A stretch of 64,000 nucleotides of DNA from a virus. A program made the position numbers and the translations under genes. The stretch covers positions 17,906 to 81,905 of the IMG/VR virus record IMGVR_UViG_3300032088_002153, one strand, 5' to 3'. The notes beneath the pieces are model-generated. The model was not told the DNA's origin, did no database searches, and saw nothing but the letters and a program-made list of their open reading frames with translations. Of this stretch, positions 15,781-30,240 are shown piece after piece; the first letter of the stretch is position 1; the number at the start of each line of letters is the position of its first letter.

Positions 15781-17019
15781 ATGAAGCGTTTTCAGGAATT
15801 TGTCACAGAAGCGAAACGCGGTGGCGCAAAGAAAAACCAAGTAAGTGCCACTGATATGGAAGCGGTTATCGTTGTTGCTTTCAACGGTGGTTGGGACAAA
15901 GCCAAAGATACATACGGTTTAAAACAAAATACATATGAAATTGGCGCTCCAATTGCAGAAAAAATTGCTGATGATATTAGAAAAACAACCAAGGCTTCTG
16001 CGAACTCACTAATACATTTTGGTTCTGGCGCAGGTCAGTTAAATCCAAAATGGTTAGGTTCCAATGGTACTCCTAAAACTGATTTATATTCAACAGACGG
16101 TATAAACATATCACTTAAACAAAAAGGTGGTTCTCAAGTTATGTCTGGATATAAAGAAGAAACAATTTCTACATTCTATGCAGCGATGGATAGTATGGGA
16201 GATAAAGCTCCTAAAGAAATTAATAAATTAGTAGCACAATTGGATCCTGTTCTCAAAAAGATTACTGTACCCGGAAATGTTAATACAATTATTAACTCAA
16301 TCAAAGGTAAATCAATGCCTAAAGGTGTTAAAGCACAAGTAGGTAATAGTAAACGTGTAATGGACATTAAGTTTGATAAAAGAGAATATGCTGCCAAGCA
16401 AGCAGAAATTGTCGACTGGAAAAACTCAATGAAGGAACTCAACCCAGTGTTTAGAGAATTCTTTGAGGACAACCAAGAGTTTAGACGATACTTTGTATAT
16501 GAAGCAGCTACTGGTGATTTTAAATTTGCCCCGGATAAATATGCTAACTCAAATTGGATGGTAGAGTTTGACCCTGCGTCTGGTACTAATAATAACATTG
16601 TCCAACTATCATTAGGCAATAACATACCGGCACCTTTTATTGATAAGCTAGCTAAAAAAGTTCAAGTTAGAATATCTCCAAAAACACCAACAGGTTCAAA
16701 AGTATCTGCGCAAGGTACATCATCAACTGTTGGATCGTTTAGATTAACAGTGGCTGAAAACAAAGGCGGGTTTGATACATTTGAAACAATGATGATAAGA
16801 GAACAAGCAAAGTTTACTGAGTCATTATTAACTGAAGATGTGTTAACTGAAGCAGGATTGTTTAGTAAACTTAAAACATGGTTATCTAAATTATATTACA
16901 AAGTAATTAAAAAGATTAAACAAATTGCTAAACTAGGATACGAAGCGTTATTATCGTTTTTCCAATTTGAAGTAAGCAAAGTTGATACAAAAGGCCTACA
17001 ACAGTTTGGATTTAAATAA
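15781..17019 (+). CDS. Capsid-targeted internal protein, unknown function
   Basis: The N terminus MKRFQEFVTEA closely resembles the T4 internal-protein capsid-targeting sequence MKTYQEFIAEA, with Glu at position 10 and a hydrophobic residue at position 8, as required for gp21 prohead protease cleavage. The 412-residue body has a PKTDLYSTDGINISLKQ segment that vaguely resembles a PD-(D/E)xK nuclease core, which is not secure. The C-terminal 60 residues contain a basic amphipathic stretch. It is the first gene of a late unit and sits 1 nt before another protein with the same signal. Confidence 0.75.
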   Translation: MKRFQEFVTEAKRGGAKKNQVSATDMEAVIVVAFNGGWDKAKDTYGLKQNTYEIGAPIAEKIADDIRKTTKASANSLIHFGSGAGQLNPKWLGSNGTPKTDLYSTDGINISLKQKGGSQVMSGYKEETISTFYAAMDSMGDKAPKEINKLVAQLDPVLKKITVPGNVNTIINSIKGKSMPKGVKAQVGNSKRVMDIKFDKREYAAKQAEIVDWKNSMKELNPVFREFFEDNQEFRRYFVYEAATGDFKFAPDKYANSNWMVEFDPASGTNNNIVQLSLGNNIPAPFIDKLAKKVQVRISPKTPTGSKVSAQGTSSTVGSFRLTVAENKGGFDTFETMMIREQAKFTESLLTEDVLTEAGLFSKLKTWLSKLYYKVIKKIKQIAKLGYEALLSFFQFEVSKVDTKGLQQFGFK

Positions 17020-18249
17020 ATGTTAAGTTTTAAAAATTACCTCGCTGAGGAAAAGAATGTTCATATGGAGCATCTTGAAGACTCGATTTTAAACCTTGGT
17101 GTTGATGGTACACGTTCTGCTATTAATTTCCTTAGAGCATTAAGAGATATGCTACAAGGTAGTTCAAAATCTAAAGTTAACGTATCAGTTAAATGGGACG
17201 GAGCACCTGCTATATTTGCGGGCGTTGATCCAAGCGACAAAAAATTCTTTGTTGCTAAAAAGGGTATTTTTAATAAGAACCCTAAAGTATATAAAACCGC
17301 CGCTGATGTCGATGCAGACACCAAAGGCGATTTAGCAGTGAAATTAAAACTAGCCTTGGAAGAGTTTCCTAAACTTGGTATCAAAGGTGTAGTACAAGGT
17401 GACTTTCTATATGATAAAAAAGATCTCAAGATATTGGACATTAAGGGTGAACCGCATGTTACTTTCCATCCTAATACGATCGTATACGCGGTACCTTCGG
17501 CATCAGACCTCGGTAAACAAATACTCAAATCCAAAATCGGAGTGGTCTGGCATACGGTATACAGAGGACGTAGCTTTGAAGAAATGTCTGCAAGTTTTGG
17601 AGAGGAGATTGCATCAAGCCTCAAAACAACGAAAACGTGCTGGTCGGTAGACGCGGTATATAGAGACGTTTCAGGCACGGCAACGATGACGGCTGCAGAG
17701 ACTGAAAAGGTTAATAAAATATTATCGGCTGCAGGAACTTTATTTCAAAAAATAAAACCAGCAACTCTAAACGGCGTAGCAAACAATCCTGACACGCTAA
17801 TGCGGACAAAAACATTTGTTAATACTAAAATTAGAGCTGGTGAAAAGATACGTAACACTCGTATGTTTGTAAAAGATTTAGAAAAGTATATTGATGATAT
17901 ATACGAAAAAGAAGCTGGCAAACGAAAAACCGATAAAGGTAAAAGAGCACAACGAGTTAAAAAAGATGCTACATTAGAATACTTTAAGAAAACATCAACA
18001 AAAGAATTAGTTGCTATGTTTGATTTGTATAACTTGCTCATAGATGCCAAACTTTTAATCATAAAGAAACTCGACAAAGCTGGTGGTTTAACAACGTTCC
18101 TTAAAACAGCTGACGGGCTTCAAGTAACAGGGCAAGAAGGCTTTGTTGCTATTGACCACATGGGTAAAACCGCAGTTAAGCTTGTTGACAGACTTGACTT
18201 TAGTAATGCTAATTTTAACGACAAGTATATTAAAGGGTGGGACAAATAA
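17020..18249 (+). CDS. Capsid-targeted protein with KWDG nucleotidyltransferase-like motif
   Basis: MLSFKNYLAEE fits the capsid-targeting signal (Glu at 10). Residues 58-61 are KWDG followed by APAIFAG, which resembles motif I (K-x-D-G) of ATP-grasp-unrelated nucleic-acid ligases and capping enzymes; GVVQGDFLYD and GVVWHTVYRG could be later motifs. The family is one I associate with T4-like marine phages, without known function. If the ligase reading is right, a packaged RNA/DNA end-joining or nucleotidyl-transfer enzyme would enter the cell with the genome. The length is 409 residues. Confidence 0.7.
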   Translation: MLSFKNYLAEEKNVHMEHLEDSILNLGVDGTRSAINFLRALRDMLQGSSKSKVNVSVKWDGAPAIFAGVDPSDKKFFVAKKGIFNKNPKVYKTAADVDADTKGDLAVKLKLALEEFPKLGIKGVVQGDFLYDKKDLKILDIKGEPHVTFHPNTIVYAVPSASDLGKQILKSKIGVVWHTVYRGRSFEEMSASFGEEIASSLKTTKTCWSVDAVYRDVSGTATMTAAETEKVNKILSAAGTLFQKIKPATLNGVANNPDTLMRTKTFVNTKIRAGEKIRNTRMFVKDLEKYIDDIYEKEAGKRKTDKGKRAQRVKKDATLEYFKKTSTKELVAMFDLYNLLIDAKLLIIKKLDKAGGLTTFLKTADGLQVTGQEGFVAIDHMGKTAVKLVDRLDFSNANFNDKYIKGWDK

Positions 18250-23130: not shown

Positions 23131-23816
23131 AGGCGTATATTTTAAAAATTGATAATAAGTTATCGCACGATTATGCAAAAGTTGCTGCTGACTCTTGTGA
23201 TAAGATTGGTTTACCTTGGACATATCATTTAGGATATAGTAATCAGTCAGGTAAAGCAGCATTTAAAGATTTAGGTATACCTAGATTACCAACTGAAAAT
23301 TATGAATATATTGCGGAACCAACTAATGGTCAAAAAGCAATGTGTTGTACCGCTGGTCATTTTGCTATATGGAAAAGGATTGCTGAAGGTACTGACAATA
23401 TAGGGATTGTACTTGAACACGATGCAATAATGCTCCAACGCCCTTGCAAATTTATAACTATACCAGAAAATACTATTGTTGTGTTAGGATATAAAATATC
23501 AGATCCAGAAAATTATAAACATGAAGAGGCTGGTCCACCAACTGATTTGATACCAATTATTGGTCATGAAGGAGCTCATGCATACGCTATGACTAGACGA
23601 ACTGCACAGTTTTTAATTAACGAAATATCCCAAAAAGGTATAAGAAGCGCAGTTGATAATGATTACTTTATTCGTGGTCAGCGTAGAACAGCCATGCCAT
23701 TACACATAGCCTCGCCAACTCCTGCACTTGGATGGATTAGGGAGTCGACTATTTGGGCAAAATCGGCTTCTAATAACTATGAATTCATACCCTCTTTTCA
23801 AAAATATTATAAATAG
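23127..23816 (+). CDS. GT25-like glycosyltransferase
   Basis: CCTAGHFAIWKRI and GIVLEHDAIML correspond to the GT25 motifs C-x-x-S-H-x-x-x-W and LEDDA, here with the DxD core as E-H-D. The family adds galactose or glucose in LPS or glycoprotein synthesis. It is the last gene of the four-gene glycan unit; its end overlaps the next late promoter. Confidence 0.65.
   Translation: MKAYILKIDNKLSHDYAKVAADSCDKIGLPWTYHLGYSNQSGKAAFKDLGIPRLPTENYEYIAEPTNGQKAMCCTAGHFAIWKRIAEGTDNIGIVLEHDAIMLQRPCKFITIPENTIVVLGYKISDPENYKHEEAGPPTDLIPIIGHEGAHAYAMTRRTAQFLINEISQKGIRSAVDNDYFIRGQRRTAMPLHIASPTPALGWIRESTIWAKSASNNYEFIPSFQKYYK
23808..23815 (+). promoter_or_regulatory. Late promoter TATAAATA before the cytidylyltransferase fusion
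   Basis: A perfect TATAAATA inside the last codons of the GT25 gene; the expected start near 23821 supports the ATG at 23848 as the next gene start. Confidence 0.65.
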
Positions 23817-23847: not shown

Positions 23848-26199
23848 ATGGTTGACGAACCGCAAGACATTAATGACCCGAAGAATAACGATGAAGACGA
23901 AGTCAAACCTAAGCCAAAGGCGAAGGATAAAGATGGCAAGCGAAAACTTCAAAGCTTTAAAGGATTTGATGCAAACAAATATGTTGATGTTGAACCAACA
24001 TTAGCTGAGGCAGCTGGCGACGATAAACCAGCAGTCGTAACATTTGGCAGAATGAATCCAATTACAGTAGGTCATGAAAAATTAGCAGCCGCTGTTATTT
24101 CAAACGCGAAGCAACGTGGTGGTACCCCTTATATTTACCTTTCGCAATCACAAGATAAAAACAAAAATCCATTAAGTTATAATGATAAAATCAAATACGC
24201 GCAAAAGGCGTTTGGGCCAGCAGTCATTAAATCAAAAGCTCGTACTATCATTGAAGTGATGGTTGAGTTAAGTGGCAAACATAAAGATGTTATAGTAGTT
24301 GTTGGTTCTGACAGGGTAAAAGAATTTGATAGACTATTAAACAAATATAATAAATCCTCTGCTGGCTATGTATTCAATAATATAAAAGTTGTATCAGCAG
24401 GCCAACGCGATCCTGATGCCGAAGGCGTTAAAGGAATGTCTGGAACTAAAATGCGTGGCTACGCCGCGGATAACGATGTTAAGAAATTCGCAACCGGATT
24501 ACCAAGTAAACTAAAAACAAGCGCAGCCGCGATATTAGCCGACGTGCGAAAGGGAATGAACATGTCAGAAGATAACGATAACGAATTTGAAAACATTGAG
24601 GAAATTGTAGAAGATACACAAGATCTCGATGAAGTATTAGACCGTATGCAGCGCCGAGCTATTGGTATTAGAATGCGTAAAAACAGACATAAAATGAAAC
24701 GTGGTAGAGAAAAAGCGGCTCGACGAACTGCAACTATGGAAGTACTTAAGAAACGTGCTCGCAAACAGGCAATCATAAATCTTAAAAACCGTTTTGCAAA
24801 AAATAAACGATATGCTGATATGTCGTCTGGTGAAAAGATTGTAATTGATAAGCGTGTTGCTAAATTCTCTAAACAAAGATTAGATGCAATGGCGCGTAAG
24901 TTATTACCAAAAGTTAAAATTAAAGAACGCGATCGTAAAAGAGCTAAGAATAAAAATGAAAATTTGGATATGAATACGCAGTTCCAAAACTTTATGACAG
25001 AAAAAACTGGACCATATTATAAAGGTGTAGCTCAGGATAAAAAAGACGATCGTGAAGATCACTTTGAGCGTAATGCCAAAAAGGCTGATAACGATGCCTC
25101 TGCATATAAGCCGGCTCCCGGAGATAAAGAAGCAAAGACTAAAGAGTCAAAGCATACTAAAAAAGCTCGTGCAATGGGTTATACTGAAGAGTTGGAAGAA
25201 AGCCATATCTGGGGACAACGTCAAGGTAAACGCCCTCATATGCTTTTAGACAAAAATGGCAAGACAAAGTTTGATAAGCGTTTCAAAATGTATAAGCCAA
25301 AACTTCAAGAAAACGTTGATGAGTTTAACATTGAAGATATTACAGATTTAATGGAATCAACAGAGTCATATATTAAAGAAGATGCTGCTGATAAATCTTT
25401 GGCTAAAAAAGCTGACAAATCTGGTATGCCACAAGGTGTTTTAAAACAAGTATATAACCGTGGTGTAGCTGCGTGGAAAACTGGTCATAGACCGGGAACT
25501 ACACCAGAACAATGGGGACATGCTCGAGTAAACTCTTTTATTACTAAATCTTCTGGTACATGGGGCAAAGCTGATAAAGACTTGGCTGCTAAAGTACGTA
25601 AAGAAGAAGTAGAACTTGAAGAAACATATAAGATTACTAAAGTATATAATCCAACTACGAAAAAATCTCGTGCAGCTGGAAAAAGTACAGCAACGTTTGC
25701 GGTACATACACATGATCGTAAATACTTTAAAGAGTTTCCAAATCAAAAAGATGCTGAAAACCATATGAAATCTCTCGGTAAAAAAGAAGAAACCAACCTC
25801 GACGAAATGGATTTTTCTATTAAATCAGTAAAGAAATCTGGTTTAGCCAATGTTAAAAAGGCAAATAACTTTGATAAATTAAAAGCTGATATTGCTAAAA
25901 TGAGAAAAAATCTCAATAAAGGTAAACCACTTCAAGCTGAAGCAGAAATTAATGAGTTAGATAAAGATACGCTTGCTAACTATGCCAATAAGGCTATTAA
26001 AGATAAAGAGCAAGCTCAATATAACAAAAGCCGTGCTCAAAATTCTAGAGCAGCTAATGTTGTTCGTGGTAACTCAGACGGCATCAAAAAAGATGTTAAA
26101 GATATTGACAAAGCTGATGCGAGAATTAAACGTCGCGAACGTGGCGCAGCAAACTTCACTCGTAAAATATTAAAGGGTGATAAGGAAAACGAAGAATGA
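23848..26199 (+). CDS. Cytidylyltransferase-like protein fused to long Lys-rich virion segment
   Basis: The late promoter at 23808 argues for the ATG at 23848 (783 residues) over the frame opening at 23728. The N-terminal domain has VTFGRMNPITVGHEKL (HxGH-like nucleotide site), an IYLSQSQDK strand and GMSGTKMR (the S-S/T-x-x-R site), as in nucleotidyltransferases of the NMN-adenylyl or cytidylyl type. After about residue 240 the protein is Lys/Arg/Glu-rich. An internal MNTQFQNFMTE at 24969 copies the capsid-targeting/protease motif, so gp21-type cleavage or an internal start may split the chain. It precedes the payload run. Confidence 0.75.
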   Translation: MVDEPQDINDPKNNDEDEVKPKPKAKDKDGKRKLQSFKGFDANKYVDVEPTLAEAAGDDKPAVVTFGRMNPITVGHEKLAAAVISNAKQRGGTPYIYLSQSQDKNKNPLSYNDKIKYAQKAFGPAVIKSKARTIIEVMVELSGKHKDVIVVVGSDRVKEFDRLLNKYNKSSAGYVFNNIKVVSAGQRDPDAEGVKGMSGTKMRGYAADNDVKKFATGLPSKLKTSAAAILADVRKGMNMSEDNDNEFENIEEIVEDTQDLDEVLDRMQRRAIGIRMRKNRHKMKRGREKAARRTATMEVLKKRARKQAIINLKNRFAKNKRYADMSSGEKIVIDKRVAKFSKQRLDAMARKLLPKVKIKERDRKRAKNKNENLDMNTQFQNFMTEKTGPYYKGVAQDKKDDREDHFERNAKKADNDASAYKPAPGDKEAKTKESKHTKKARAMGYTEELEESHIWGQRQGKRPHMLLDKNGKTKFDKRFKMYKPKLQENVDEFNIEDITDLMESTESYIKEDAADKSLAKKADKSGMPQGVLKQVYNRGVAAWKTGHRPGTTPEQWGHARVNSFITKSSGTWGKADKDLAAKVRKEEVELEETYKITKVYNPTTKKSRAAGKSTATFAVHTHDRKYFKEFPNQKDAENHMKSLGKKEETNLDEMDFSIKSVKKSGLANVKKANNFDKLKADIAKMRKNLNKGKPLQAEAEINELDKDTLANYANKAIKDKEQAQYNKSRAQNSRAANVVRGNSDGIKKDVKDIDKADARIKRRERGAANFTRKILKGDKENEE

Positions 26200-26771
26200 A
26201 AAAATTTAAACAACACGTTCAATCAAAAGCTGGTGCCGGTGATATTGGTACTGATGAATTAGTCAAAACTCTTAAGTCTGATACTCCAATGGAAGAAGCT
26301 TGTTGGAGTACTCACAAACAAGTTGGTATGAAGAAAAAAGGGGACAAGATGGTTCCTAACTGTGTACCTAAAAATGAAGATGCTGAATACGATAACGAAG
26401 GTGGCATGTCAAAAAATCAATTAAAGACTATGATTGATGCTGCACAAGAGTTACATAGTATGCTTGACGACGACGAGAATATGCCTGAGTGGGTACAATC
26501 AAAAATTACAAAAGCAACTGATTACATTGATACTGTTAGAGATTATATGAAATCAAACGATGTAAGTGAAGGTTCTGAAACTTGGGAAGCTGGTTATAAA
26601 CGTCGTGTAGTTAAAACAACTAGTCCTGAACATAAAGAGGCTGGTCACAAATGGCGCATCAAAGGTAAAGATAAAGCAAACCTTTCTATTAAATTATATA
26701 AAGAAAAACCATCTCAACAAGAGTTTAATAAGCAAATGAAAAGAGTTGCTGGCCACGAGTTTGGCGGTTAA
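26196..26771 (+). CDS. Capsid-targeted internal protein with CW...PNCVPK motif
   Basis: The N terminus MKKFKQHVQSK fits the targeting pattern but has Ser, not Glu, at position 10. It contains ACWSTHKQVGMKKKGDKM directly followed by VPNCVPK, a two-Cys motif repeated in virion proteins of many marine T4-like phages, then a helical block (LKTMIDAAQELHSMLDDD) and a basic end. It overlaps the previous stop by 4 nt. Confidence 0.7.
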   Translation: MKKFKQHVQSKAGAGDIGTDELVKTLKSDTPMEEACWSTHKQVGMKKKGDKMVPNCVPKNEDAEYDNEGGMSKNQLKTMIDAAQELHSMLDDDENMPEWVQSKITKATDYIDTVRDYMKSNDVSEGSETWEAGYKRRVVKTTSPEHKEAGHKWRIKGKDKANLSIKLYKEKPSQQEFNKQMKRVAGHEFGG

Positions 26772-26772
26772 T

Positions 26773-27219
26773 GTGTTACGGTTTAAACAATATATGACTG
26801 AATATACTGTTAAGTCAATGGCAAAATACCATGAAATAACAGGCACAGAATTTATTAAGCCTAAGGTTAAATTATTAAAGTTACCAACAAAAAACGTAAC
26901 TGATAATGATTTAATATATGCTCATTTAATGTATGGTCACCTAGAAAGCTATCAGTATGCGGAACTTGCATTTCCGGGTTCTACCAGAAAGACTAATGCG
27001 TGGTTTAGTAAATATTCTAAAATGGCTAAAGTATATGGCGAAGAAAACGACGCAGGCGACCATTTATCTGTTATGAGAAAAGCTGCTGAAATGACTAGTG
27101 AACGTAGTAAAAACTTTAAATTAAATGGTAGAGAATGGAAATCTAGTAAACAAGGTAAAGCTTGGAATGCATGGGAAACTGAGCAAAGAAAAATTTATCC
27201 GGAGCAATGGAATGATTAG
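26773..27219 (+). CDS. Capsid-targeted internal protein
   Basis: The start is taken as GTG 26773, because it gives MLRFKQYMTEY, a full match to the targeting signal (Glu 10, hydrophobic 8). A TTG at 26746 would bury the signal and overlap the upstream gene by 26 nt. The remaining 138 residues are basic and helical; no family is recognised. Confidence 0.7.
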   Translation: MLRFKQYMTEYTVKSMAKYHEITGTEFIKPKVKLLKLPTKNVTDNDLIYAHLMYGHLESYQYAELAFPGSTRKTNAWFSKYSKMAKVYGEENDAGDHLSVMRKAAEMTSERSKNFKLNGREWKSSKQGKAWNAWETEQRKIYPEQWND

Positions 27220-27976
27220 GTTTAAACGTTATATAACAGAAAGTGCTAACTCTTCGCACGATCACCATCATACAAGTTCTAGTAAAATTGATACTGATAA
27301 GCACAATGCAGGTAAGGGTAAAAACCCAGAGCATCCTATGTGGTTATCTCATAATGCTCACCAAGCTGCGGGTTGGCATAAAAATCATGAACAAGAAAAT
27401 GGTTCAGCGCATACCTATAAGGTAAAAGTAAAGAACGTTGCTCATCATACAGACCCAAAGGTTAAAGCCTTATTTAAAAAGCATGGTCATAGTATGAAAG
27501 ATTATCACTCTGAGCTTGTTAGCAATCCAAGCCATAAAGAAGTACATAACCACCCAGCAACAAAAATGCTCAAGAAGGCTGGTTATCATGGGCATACTCA
27601 CTCAGATTATCATTCACATGACTTTTCTAAGGACCATGACTCAACTGTAGTATTTCACAGAAAACATGCGACAATGCACGACGCAAATAAAGAACCAGCT
27701 CATAAGCATGCTGATACTAAACACACCGTTGGAAATCATAGTGTTACACATAAAACTCATCAGGAATATATGGACGGAAGTCACCGACCACTAGACCATG
27801 GTGGTACAGAGTCTAGGCTATCAACATCACACGATCATGCCAAAACTCTTAAAGCAAAACTTAAAGGTACTGGTAATAAAATTAATATAACTAAAAATAA
27901 ATCTGGATCTAGGATAAAGGTTACGCATTCTGATAGTGCTGCTCGAGACACGTTCCATAAACACTTAAAAGGGTGA
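27212..27976 (+). CDS. Capsid-targeted His-rich protein
   Basis: The ATG at 27212 gives MIRFKRYITES (Glu 10, Ile 8), the targeting signal. The 254-residue body is exceptionally rich in His (for example SSHDHHHTSSS, HGHTHSDYHSH), a composition suited to binding Zn, Ni or Cu, or to buffering. The frame overlaps the previous gene by 8 nt. No catalytic fold is recognised. Confidence 0.7.
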   Translation: MIRFKRYITESANSSHDHHHTSSSKIDTDKHNAGKGKNPEHPMWLSHNAHQAAGWHKNHEQENGSAHTYKVKVKNVAHHTDPKVKALFKKHGHSMKDYHSELVSNPSHKEVHNHPATKMLKKAGYHGHTHSDYHSHDFSKDHDSTVVFHRKHATMHDANKEPAHKHADTKHTVGNHSVTHKTHQEYMDGSHRPLDHGGTESRLSTSHDHAKTLKAKLKGTGNKINITKNKSGSRIKVTHSDSAARDTFHKHLKG

Positions 27977-27980
27977 AAGT

Positions 27981-28337
27981 ATGAAAAGTTTTAAGGTGCA
28001 TTTAAACGAGGCGGTAGATAGACCACCTAGATGGAAAAAAGATACTTCTATGGGAGAGGGCGGCGCTCAAACTATTGAATTTCCAAAGACTAAGGGTAAG
28101 TACAGAGTTTCAAAGTTCCTTGATCATAATGAACGCCATAAAGGTGAATGGAATTTAGAAGTTTGGGACCCTCGGCGTAGAGAGTTCGTATGGTCTGAGA
28201 CTCTTGCTCCAAAGGCTTGGGTAAAAGAACTTTGCATATACAGAGGTCAGTTCAAACACGATGCGCGTGGGGATTTTGATAAAAAACAACAAGTAGCAGA
28301 TTATAGTAAAACATTTAAATTTGACGGGCATTACTAA
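27981..28337 (+). CDS. Capsid-targeted internal protein (118 aa)
   Basis: The N terminus MKSFKVHLNEA has Leu 8 and Glu 10 of the targeting signal. The rest (KYRVSKFLDHNERHKGEWN, WDPRRREFVW) is charged and Trp-rich with no recognised fold. It is 4 nt after the His-rich gene and overlaps the next start by 1 nt. Confidence 0.65.
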   Translation: MKSFKVHLNEAVDRPPRWKKDTSMGEGGAQTIEFPKTKGKYRVSKFLDHNERHKGEWNLEVWDPRRREFVWSETLAPKAWVKELCIYRGQFKHDARGDFDKKQQVADYSKTFKFDGHY

Positions 28338-28894
28338 TGAAAAGATTTAAAGAATTCACATCACACGATCTTAATGAAAGCGCCCTAACGGCACTTAGGG
28401 TCGCGACAAAGGCCCATTCTGGTCAAACACGTAAAAGCGGCGGTCAATATATTGAACATCCAAAAGAAGTTGCGCGATTTGTAAAAAAGTTTAAAAAATC
28501 TAATAACCTTTCTGCATTAGTACAAGCGGCGTACTTGCACGATACTATTGAAGATACTGATACTACATATGCAGATTTAGTTAAACAGTTTGGTGCTCTC
28601 GTGGCTGACATGGTTAAAGAATTAACTACTGACAAAGCTGCATCTGATGCTATCGGTAAAGGCGAGTACATTGCTAATAAAATGGCTAAGATGTCAAGTT
28701 GGTCTTTAGTTATTAAACTTGCTGATAGATTAGCAAACGTACAGGATATTGATACACGACCAGCAGCTTTCCAGAAAAAATATGCTGCAGACACTACATT
28801 AGCAATAAAACGTTTAAGATCTGATAGATATTTAAGTAAGACTCACAATAAAATCATTTCAGCTATCGAAAAGAAAATTAAGGAATACGTATAA
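28337..28894 (+). CDS. HD-domain (p)ppGpp hydrolase-like protein, possibly packaged
   Basis: The 185-residue protein matches small alarmone hydrolases (RelA/SpoT-type HD, MESH1 size). Metal-site residues are His 27 (HSGQTRKSGG), His 68-Asp 69 (LHDTIEDTDTT) and Asp 129 (LADRLANV), and YIEHP at 38-42 is typical. Such enzymes cleave the 3'-pyrophosphate of (p)ppGpp and so lower the stringent response; some act on other pyrophosphorylated nucleotides. No synthetase domain is present. The first residues MKRFKEFTSHD resemble the capsid-targeting signal of neighbours but have His at 10, so cleavage is uncertain. It is coupled by 1 nt to flanking targeted genes. Confidence 0.8.
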   Translation: MKRFKEFTSHDLNESALTALRVATKAHSGQTRKSGGQYIEHPKEVARFVKKFKKSNNLSALVQAAYLHDTIEDTDTTYADLVKQFGALVADMVKELTTDKAASDAIGKGEYIANKMAKMSSWSLVIKLADRLANVQDIDTRPAAFQKKYAADTTLAIKRLRSDRYLSKTHNKIISAIEKKIKEYV

Positions 28895-29538
28895 TGAAAA
28901 GTTTTAAAACACATATTAGTGAATTATATACTATCGGACATACGAGATCCTATGATGCTGTCGCCAATCGAGCAAAGCAAAATGTAAAACATGGTTCAAC
29001 TGATCCAAAGGATAAAAGATTTGGTACTAAACTTGGTGGTCAAAAAGGTGAGCATGGAGGTGCAGCGTATAAAACTCCGGAAGATGCTACAAAAGGTGCT
29101 AAGGCGTTAAAGAAAGAGTTTCCGGGCAGAAAATACAGTGTATATAAAATGAAAGGTGATTTTGATAAAGACACTTATCATAGCAATAAAACTGGTATGA
29201 ACCATGTAAAAAAAGATACTGAAATTACTCATAAAGTAGCTCATAATGTATCAGAAGAAAAAGATCCACGTTTAGCTCGAGCTGGCGTAAAAGGTTTTAA
29301 CAAAGCCAAAGGTACTCCCTCGCATCCTACTAAAAGTCATATTGTTGTTGCTAAAGACGGCGACAAAATAAAGACTATTCGTTTTGGTGAGCAAGGTGCT
29401 TCGACTGCAGGCGATCCTAAAAAGGGTGAGTCTGATAAAATGAAAGCGAAACGTAAATCATTTAAGGCACGCCACGGTAAAAACATTGCTAAAGGCAAAA
29501 TGTCAGCTGCATACTGGGCTGACAAGGTCAAATGGTAA
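28894..29538 (+). CDS. Capsid-targeted basic protein with KSFKARHGKNI motif
   Basis: The targeting signal is MKSFKTHISEL (Ile 8, Glu 10). The C-terminal part (IRFGEQGASTAG, KRKSFKARHGKNIAKGKMS, AYWADKVKW) is a module shared widely by phage virion and internal proteins. It is highly basic and probably binds DNA inside the head. Confidence 0.75.
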   Translation: MKSFKTHISELYTIGHTRSYDAVANRAKQNVKHGSTDPKDKRFGTKLGGQKGEHGGAAYKTPEDATKGAKALKKEFPGRKYSVYKMKGDFDKDTYHSNKTGMNHVKKDTEITHKVAHNVSEEKDPRLARAGVKGFNKAKGTPSHPTKSHIVVAKDGDKIKTIRFGEQGASTAGDPKKGESDKMKAKRKSFKARHGKNIAKGKMSAAYWADKVKW

Positions 29539-29544
29539 TTATTT

Positions 29545-29552
29545 TATAAATA
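29545..29552 (+). promoter_or_regulatory. Late promoter TATAAATA before the Cys-rich core protein
   Basis: A perfect TATAAATA 29 bases before the ATG at 29581, in a short non-coding gap. Confidence 0.7.
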
Positions 29553-29580: not shown

Positions 29581-30240
29581 ATGAAACGGTTTAAGACACA
29601 TTTTAACGAAGCTAAAGACACACATTGTTCAGACAAGTGTTGTGGCGCTGATGTAAAAGCAGAAGATTGTGATTGCCCTGCTGATTGCGCTCACTGTAAT
29701 TGTAATGCCAAGAATGAAGCGTTTGACCCTAAACATCCAAAGGTTGTAGCTGCTCGTAAAGCTGTTAAAAACGGTACTTATAATGGTAATATGGATACGA
29801 ATGGTAATGCTATTGTACACATTGATGGTAAACCTCATACAGTAACTAAAGGCGATCCTGCTGCAAAGAATGAAGCAACTAACGAAGACATTATTGCTAT
29901 TATTAACGAACATAATATTACTCTAGAACAATTAGAGAATATGACCGAAGAAGAACTTAACGAATTACTAGGAAAAGCAATTGGTGGCGTGGCTAAGGTT
30001 ATTGGTGGGGTTGCCAAAGGCGCCGGAAGATTGGCGGGCGCAGGTATTAAACGAGCAGTAATGACAAAGCAAGGTAGTATTCGTGGTACTAAGGCTGCAA
30101 AACAAGATAAAGCAGGCGATAGAGCAGAAAAAATGGCTAGAGAAAGAGAAAAAGAATTCAAGCGCAAAAAGCGGATTTCTGACATGAAGCAAAGAGCTAG
30201 TGACTTGGATCAAAAAATCTCTGACTTAAATAATAAATAA
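29581..30240 (+). CDS. Capsid-targeted protein with Cys-rich cluster
   Basis: The N terminus MKRFKTHFNEA has Phe 8 and Glu 10. Residues 17-41 hold eight Cys (HCSDKCCG, EDCDCPADCAHCNC), which resembles a metallothionein or two zinc knuckles. A Gly/Ala-rich hydrophobic segment (GKAIGGVAKVIGGVAKGAG) and a basic coiled coil follow. It could be a prohead core or packaged protein; the metal binding is inferred from composition. Confidence 0.7.
   Translation: MKRFKTHFNEAKDTHCSDKCCGADVKAEDCDCPADCAHCNCNAKNEAFDPKHPKVVAARKAVKNGTYNGNMDTNGNAIVHIDGKPHTVTKGDPAAKNEATNEDIIAIINEHNITLEQLENMTEEELNELLGKAIGGVAKVIGGVAKGAGRLAGAGIKRAVMTKQGSIRGTKAAKQDKAGDRAEKMAREREKEFKRKKRISDMKQRASDLDQKISDLNNK

Follow-up and report, generated by a model that had tools for sequence, protein, structure and literature searches.

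We propose that the gene at 28337..28894 of the window analysed here (the whole stretch of 64,000 nucleotides, taken from a virus record 81,905 bases long; all window features named below lie on the + strand) encodes the precursor of an HD-type alarmone hydrolase that is made late in infection, cut by the gp21 prohead protease, packaged and injected, and that would act on (p)ppGpp or a close relative in the next cell; we give this reading a probability of roughly 0.6. We infer the following course: the small alarmone hydrolase, synthesised late as a precursor, would be carried into the prohead core by its first 14 residues (a T4-type capsid-targeting sequence), gp21 would cleave after E14 and leave a folded 171-residue HD enzyme in the head, and the mature enzyme would pass into the next cell with the DNA, where it would remove the 3'-pyrophosphate ahead of phage gene expression and so render a starved or alarmed host able to support infection. 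The features that point in this direction, as read from the sequence, are the fold and residues of the enzyme, the targeting motif, the conserved position of the predicted cut site, a late-type operon, and synteny and homology with virion-detected proteins; the predicted packaging and processing of the hydrolase are well supported.

The open reading frame (185 aa, ATG start) overlaps each of its flanking genes by a single base and is a real gene under strongly purifying selection (dN/dS 0.01-0.05 in comparison to close relatives for which dS was estimable, dS being largely saturated). In profile searches it passed the curated Pfam cut-offs for HD_4 (E=3.1e-16) and HD (2.3e-6), fell into the phage family phrog_990 and gave a partial match to TIGR00691 (RelA/SpoT; 2.2e-25) confined to model positions 1-138 of 687, with a score under the whole-protein cut-off, as is expected of a lone hydrolase domain that has no synthetase domain beside it. 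Its best sequence matches among solved structures were MESH1 and the Rel hydrolase domains (E 1e-24, versus 2e-12 for the solved (p)ppApp hydrolase). In an alignment of 39 relatives R32, H41 (28457-28459), H68-D69 (28538-28543), E72-D73 (28550-28555), D130 (28724-28726) and N134 were invariant, and we take these, from the alignment plus general family knowledge, to be the metal ligands and the catalytic/substrate-binding residues of MESH1/Rel. The AlphaFold model built on this alignment (mean pLDDT 92, pTM 0.86) retrieved from the PDB a top 50 composed entirely of alarmone-hydrolase or Rel/SpoT-family entries, headed by MESH1 (TM 0.80; its NADPH complex being second in the list) and followed by P. 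aeruginosa SAH, C. glutamicum RelH, Rel and SpoT; the RelA entry at rank 49 belongs to the same family, although RelA has an inactive hydrolase domain. An earlier note on this DNA had likened the HD residues to those of small alarmone hydrolases and had suggested an HMM search as a check: the likeness is borne out by the HD_4 match, the invariant residues and the fold matches, and the search, now run, placed HD_4 past its cut-off and MESH1 among the best profile matches. By sequence and predicted structure, the protein belongs to the MESH1/Rel-type HD hydrolases, and none of the catalytic residues is missing. Since the MESH1/Rel metal, catalytic and substrate-binding residues are invariant, the predicted enzyme likely hydrolyses a 3'-pyrophosphate; its candidate substrates are (p)ppGpp, (p)ppApp, tRNA-PP and NADPH.

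The precursor begins with MKRFKEFTSHDLNE/SAL (here and below, a slash marks the predicted cut), of which the putative capsid-targeting leader MKRFKEFTSHDLNE spans 28337..28378 and has F4 and F7 where T4 leaders carry their targeting residues. In T4, targeting depends chiefly on leader residues 4 and 7 and processing on residues 8 and 10, gp21 cleaving after the E of L/I-x-E (PMC9026906). Positions 8-10 of the hydrolase leader read TSH and form no site; L12-N13-E14 (28370..28378) is a canonical L-x-E and the likely prohead-protease site, cleavage of which after E14 would yield the predicted mature hydrolase (171 aa, 28379..28891), the part that comprises the invariant residues, the modelled fold and its matches. 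The model leaves residues 1-12 disordered; its first helix runs from residue 14, and the fold starts at the LNE site. The His that had earlier been pointed out at position 10 is indeed there; the view that it makes cleavage less certain does not hold, since the conserved L12-N13-E14 lies just downstream.

Two kinds of collection yielded well over 100 relatives. The place of the site was defined by its distance from the A-H-x-G motif, 15-13 residues upstream of the motif's His. Hydrophobic-x-E (a pattern widened from T4's L/I-x-E after the data were seen) stood at the exact position in 66/71 distinct viral contexts, 53 of them with strict L/I-x-E, and within a few residues of it in three further ones, against a background of 1.7% per position in the same ORFs. 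It was present in 16 of 18 groups defined by shared upstream words (tail 9e-27), a grouping that serves as a rough guard against shared descent and is no formal test. The variants (LNE, INE, LDE, IKE, LRE, VDE, VAE, ITE) keep the E, and the sequence upstream of them varies as well: mostly it is a short leader, and many domains reside inside longer frames (L004 276 aa, L064 590, L181 801, L136 810, L187 1002, L063 1200, L179 1385), with polyproteins of up to 1922 aa (L139, whose T-D-E is one of the exceptions). In the long frames a second hydrophobic-x-E motif often occurs past the domain end, and in one contig (L047, 374 aa) a single frame joins the hydrolase with a homologue of the protein encoded next door at 28894. 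A still longer open frame (L143 1-8433, 2811 aa) includes the hydrolase domain, its remainder being without a Pfam match. The aromatic leader motif is kept in 42 of the 51 short-leader contexts; several short leaders (L140, L144, L188) have the site and lack the aromatics at 4 and 7, and L010 and similar relatives match T4 exactly at positions 4, 7, 8 and 10. Leader motif and site are retained in relatives down to ~50% identity, even where the upstream protein changes. The site was not found in six scored cellular relatives, in Vibrio phage pv27 or in LR745206. Near-identical hydrolases with leaders (92% and 87%) were observed in a Rhodobacteraceae bin (L211) and a Bacteroidetes bin (L212); both come from the genome collection and are probably phage contigs that ended up in bacterial bins, so neither entered the cellular count.

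The full T4-type motif (M..[FY]..[FYH][ILVMF].E, scored at gene starts versus internal positions) was found at the start of 7 of the 88 window genes and at 4 of 18,030 internal positions (binomial tail 1.7e-16), which places above chance the MK-x-F-K start that the earlier note had seen as common to the hydrolase and its neighbours; a relaxed motif took in 10 window genes, the hydrolase among them. Five of the seven full-motif genes are close neighbours of the hydrolase gene, and its assignment to a capsid-targeted protein set was likewise upheld, the members being apparently protease-processed. The case for packaging is in fact stronger than the note could make it, given the conserved place of the cut site, the embedding in polyproteins, gp21 in relatives, the late-type promoter, and the synteny and homology with proteins that mass spectrometry detected in virions. 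A predicted T4-type late promoter (TATAAATA, 23808..23815, its last base 33 bases from the start codon at 23848) heads an operon that ends with the hydrolase gene and 28894..29538. The first gene (23848..26199) encodes a predicted NMNAT/cytidylyltransferase polyprotein with many L/I-x-E sites, homologous to gene 91 of phage S-SCSM1, whose product mass spectrometry detected in virions. This polyprotein (784 aa) has its NMNAT-like domain directly after LAE/A and contains DUF5824; each of its pieces may be a separate packaged protein. It is followed by a neighbour with the relaxed motif MKKFKQH and no L/I-x-E at 8-10 (26196..26771), and by predicted targeted proteins with the leader motif at 26773..27219 (MLRFKQYMTE/Y, GTG start), 27212..27976 (MIRFKRYITE/S, start corrected from 27125), 27981..28337 (MKSFKVHLNE/A) and, past the hydrolase, 28894..29538 (MKSFKTHISE/L, homologous to the fusion partner of the hydrolase in L047). 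A late-type promoter (TATAAATA, 29545..29552) precedes the next gene for a predicted targeted protein with the leader motif (29581..30240, MKRFKTHFNE/A). Two of these products have no family match: the 27212-27976 protein (254 aa) is very His-rich behind a perfect T4-type leader, and the 29581-30240 protein is rich in Cys at its head and in Gly/Ala further on. Two further leader proteins, MKRFQEFVTE/A and MLSFKNYLAE/E (DUF6267), lie beside gp41 at 15781-18249.

In the window TATAAATA stands ~30 bases upstream of the start codons at 23848, 15781 and 29581, and in related loci it is enriched ahead of targeted genes (15/107 versus 27/709, p=1e-4). As its enrichment in the whole window is only mild (17 versus 10.5 expected; ATAAATA showed no enrichment there), what counts for the promoter argument is its placement ahead of targeted genes. 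A late promoter fits delivery, because a late-made hydrolase can act early only if it is delivered. The related marine loci (L001-L080) hold 107 distinct ORFs with the full T4-type leader motif, an extensive and uncharted pool of candidates for packaging.

The paper behind the S-SCSM1 record reports mass spectrometry, and NMNAT-like proteins have been detected in virions of the cyanophages S-SCSM1, S-CREM2 and S-CBWM1 (PMC9602691, PMC10665884); the authors of the cyanophage proteomes warned that carry-over could account for such proteins. The annotated virion proteins of S-SCSM1 include genes 89-93, 95 and 97, located between gp41/mazG and primase/nrdA-nrdB, and it is in the syntenic interval of the window that the hydrolase lies, together with the targeted genes. 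Gene 91 of S-SCSM1 is an NMNAT that begins with an exact T4-type leader (MKSFLQFLKE/A), and the NMNAT part of the 23848-26199 polyprotein is 41% identical to it (E 4.5e-32). Furthermore, NMNAT and hydrolase share one frame in six contigs (L063, L179, L181, L187, L192, L199). Such polyproteins also contain other modules: the hydrolase is followed by an ART-PolyVal domain (L136 5395-7824; a weak match, below cut-off) or accompanied by an NT5C-type nucleotidase (L199 4234-7008). The hydrolase was sought and not found in Melnitz, S-MS29 and AG-345-L05; as the targeted block occurs without it in the cultured Melnitz and S-MS29, the hydrolase would be an accessory cargo.

The record comes from a T4-like phage that encodes gp32, UvsX, gp41, a primase and ribonucleotide reductase, and the sole near nucleotide match in the phage collection (to part of the window) was a Kyanoviridae record. 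Relatives' contigs encode capsid proteins with LTE/AA near the position at which T4 gp23 is cleaved. Peptidase S77 (gp21) was present in 11 of 26 records searched, including each of the six that reach 150 kb or more (G001, G002, G003, G016, G020, G022), the remaining records being shorter and possibly incomplete; the hydrolase of G002 is 91% identical to the one studied here; gp21 and gp23 were not found in the window's own ~82-kb record, which is a fragment. PADLOC gave no match.

The evidence for delivery has to be weighed against two readings without it. The conserved LNE could be merely a part of the HD fold, capping helix 1 at its N terminus, as the model's first helix begins at residue 14 and adjoins it; given the free variation within hydrophobic-x-E around a constant E, and the absence of the motif from cellular and leaderless phage relatives, we rejected this as exceedingly unlikely. 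The protein could also be an ordinary intracellular alarmone hydrolase with an incidental leader, acting in the cell that produces it, in the manner of the leaderless alarmone hydrolases of other phages (e.g. Vibrio phage pv27 and Pakpunavirus Adele); the retention of leader and site to ~50% identity despite changes of the upstream protein, the late-type promoter of the operon and its position within a virion-protein block make this very improbable.

Two other explanations keep the delivery and differ in the target. In one, the enzyme would be a virion-borne counter-defence that strips pyrophosphate from tRNA ends or destroys the (p)ppApp of toxSAS/CapRel immunity, as for the enzyme of phage SSU5, and would not be aimed at the housekeeping stringent response; the sequence is nearer to MESH1/Rel than to the (p)ppApp hydrolase (1e-24 versus 2e-12), a difference that does not settle the substrate, and we regard this explanation as unlikely. 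In the other, which we hold to be distinctly improbable, the enzyme would be a MESH1-like NADPH phosphatase in an NAD-centred kit with NMNAT and ADP-ribosyltransferase modules: MESH1 comes first among the fold and profile matches (with its NADPH complex second in the fold list), many loci have NMNAT upstream of the hydrolase or fused with it, and ART-PolyVal follows in L136, yet Rel, SpoT and the bacterial SAH enzymes match nearly as well, and MESH1 itself also hydrolyses ppGpp (title of 3nr1).

The T4 proteins delivered by the leader route include Alt and the restriction inhibitor IPI. If the main reading is true, an alarmone hydrolase borne with the DNA would let the phage reset the host's starvation state at once, which matters for the infection of starving bacteria in the ocean and for immune systems based on nucleotide signals. 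More broadly, and as a tentative proposal to which we attach somewhat less than even odds, the heads of aquatic T4-like phages may carry an interchangeable set of enzymes that act on nucleotide signals (NMNAT, alarmone hydrolase, ADP-ribosyltransferase, nucleotidase). These would be synthesised as polyproteins or as precursors with a targeting peptide, be separated by the prohead protease, and erase the nucleotide signals of starvation and immunity as soon as they enter the cell, ahead of all phage gene expression. Thanks to the conserved cut site and the natural fusions, the main reading can be tested with a single purified protease and a single enzyme; they also open a route, by sequence, to the cargo lists of uncultured phages.

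Among known systems, the closest parallel is provided by the internal head proteins of T4 (IPI, IPII, IPIII and Alt), whose capsid-targeting sequences are cleaved by gp21 (PMC9026906). The hydrolase resembles them in the aromatics at 4 and 7, the predicted L/I-x-E site, the gp21 of its relatives and the predicted late-type promoter; it differs in its cargo (an alarmone hydrolase, in relatives also inside polyproteins) and in the loss of the 8-10 site, for which the site at 12-14 would substitute. With the NMNAT-like virion proteins of S-SCSM1, S-CREM2 and S-CBWM1 it shares the genome block, an NMNAT homologue heading the hydrolase operon, whereas the hydrolase is absent from those phages; the cultured Kyanoviridae tested lack it too. 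MESH1, P. aeruginosa SAH, RelH and the PaSpo of phage SSU5 are like the predicted hydrolase in fold, catalytic residues and single-domain make-up, but they have neither a targeting leader nor a protease site, and none of them is known as a packaged protein. The HD-alarmone phosphodiesterases of jumbo phages (PMC7824862) and the SAH of Pakpunavirus (PMC12846349) are likewise phage-encoded alarmone hydrolases, and have not been described as virion proteins. Polyvalent proteins are also multi-domain and thought to be injected with the DNA (PMC5512222), and an ART-PolyVal domain adjoins the hydrolase in L136; their alarmone domain, however, is a RelA/SpoT synthetase, of opposite activity (PMC5512222), and the modules of the hydrolase polyproteins are, in contrast to theirs, separated by likely prohead-protease sites. 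A literature search covering mainly open-access journal papers found no description of a packaged alarmone hydrolase. Taken together, phage alarmone hydrolases, alarmone synthetases proposed to be injected and NMNAT in virions were already known; what would be new is an alarmone hydrolase as cargo on a known delivery route.
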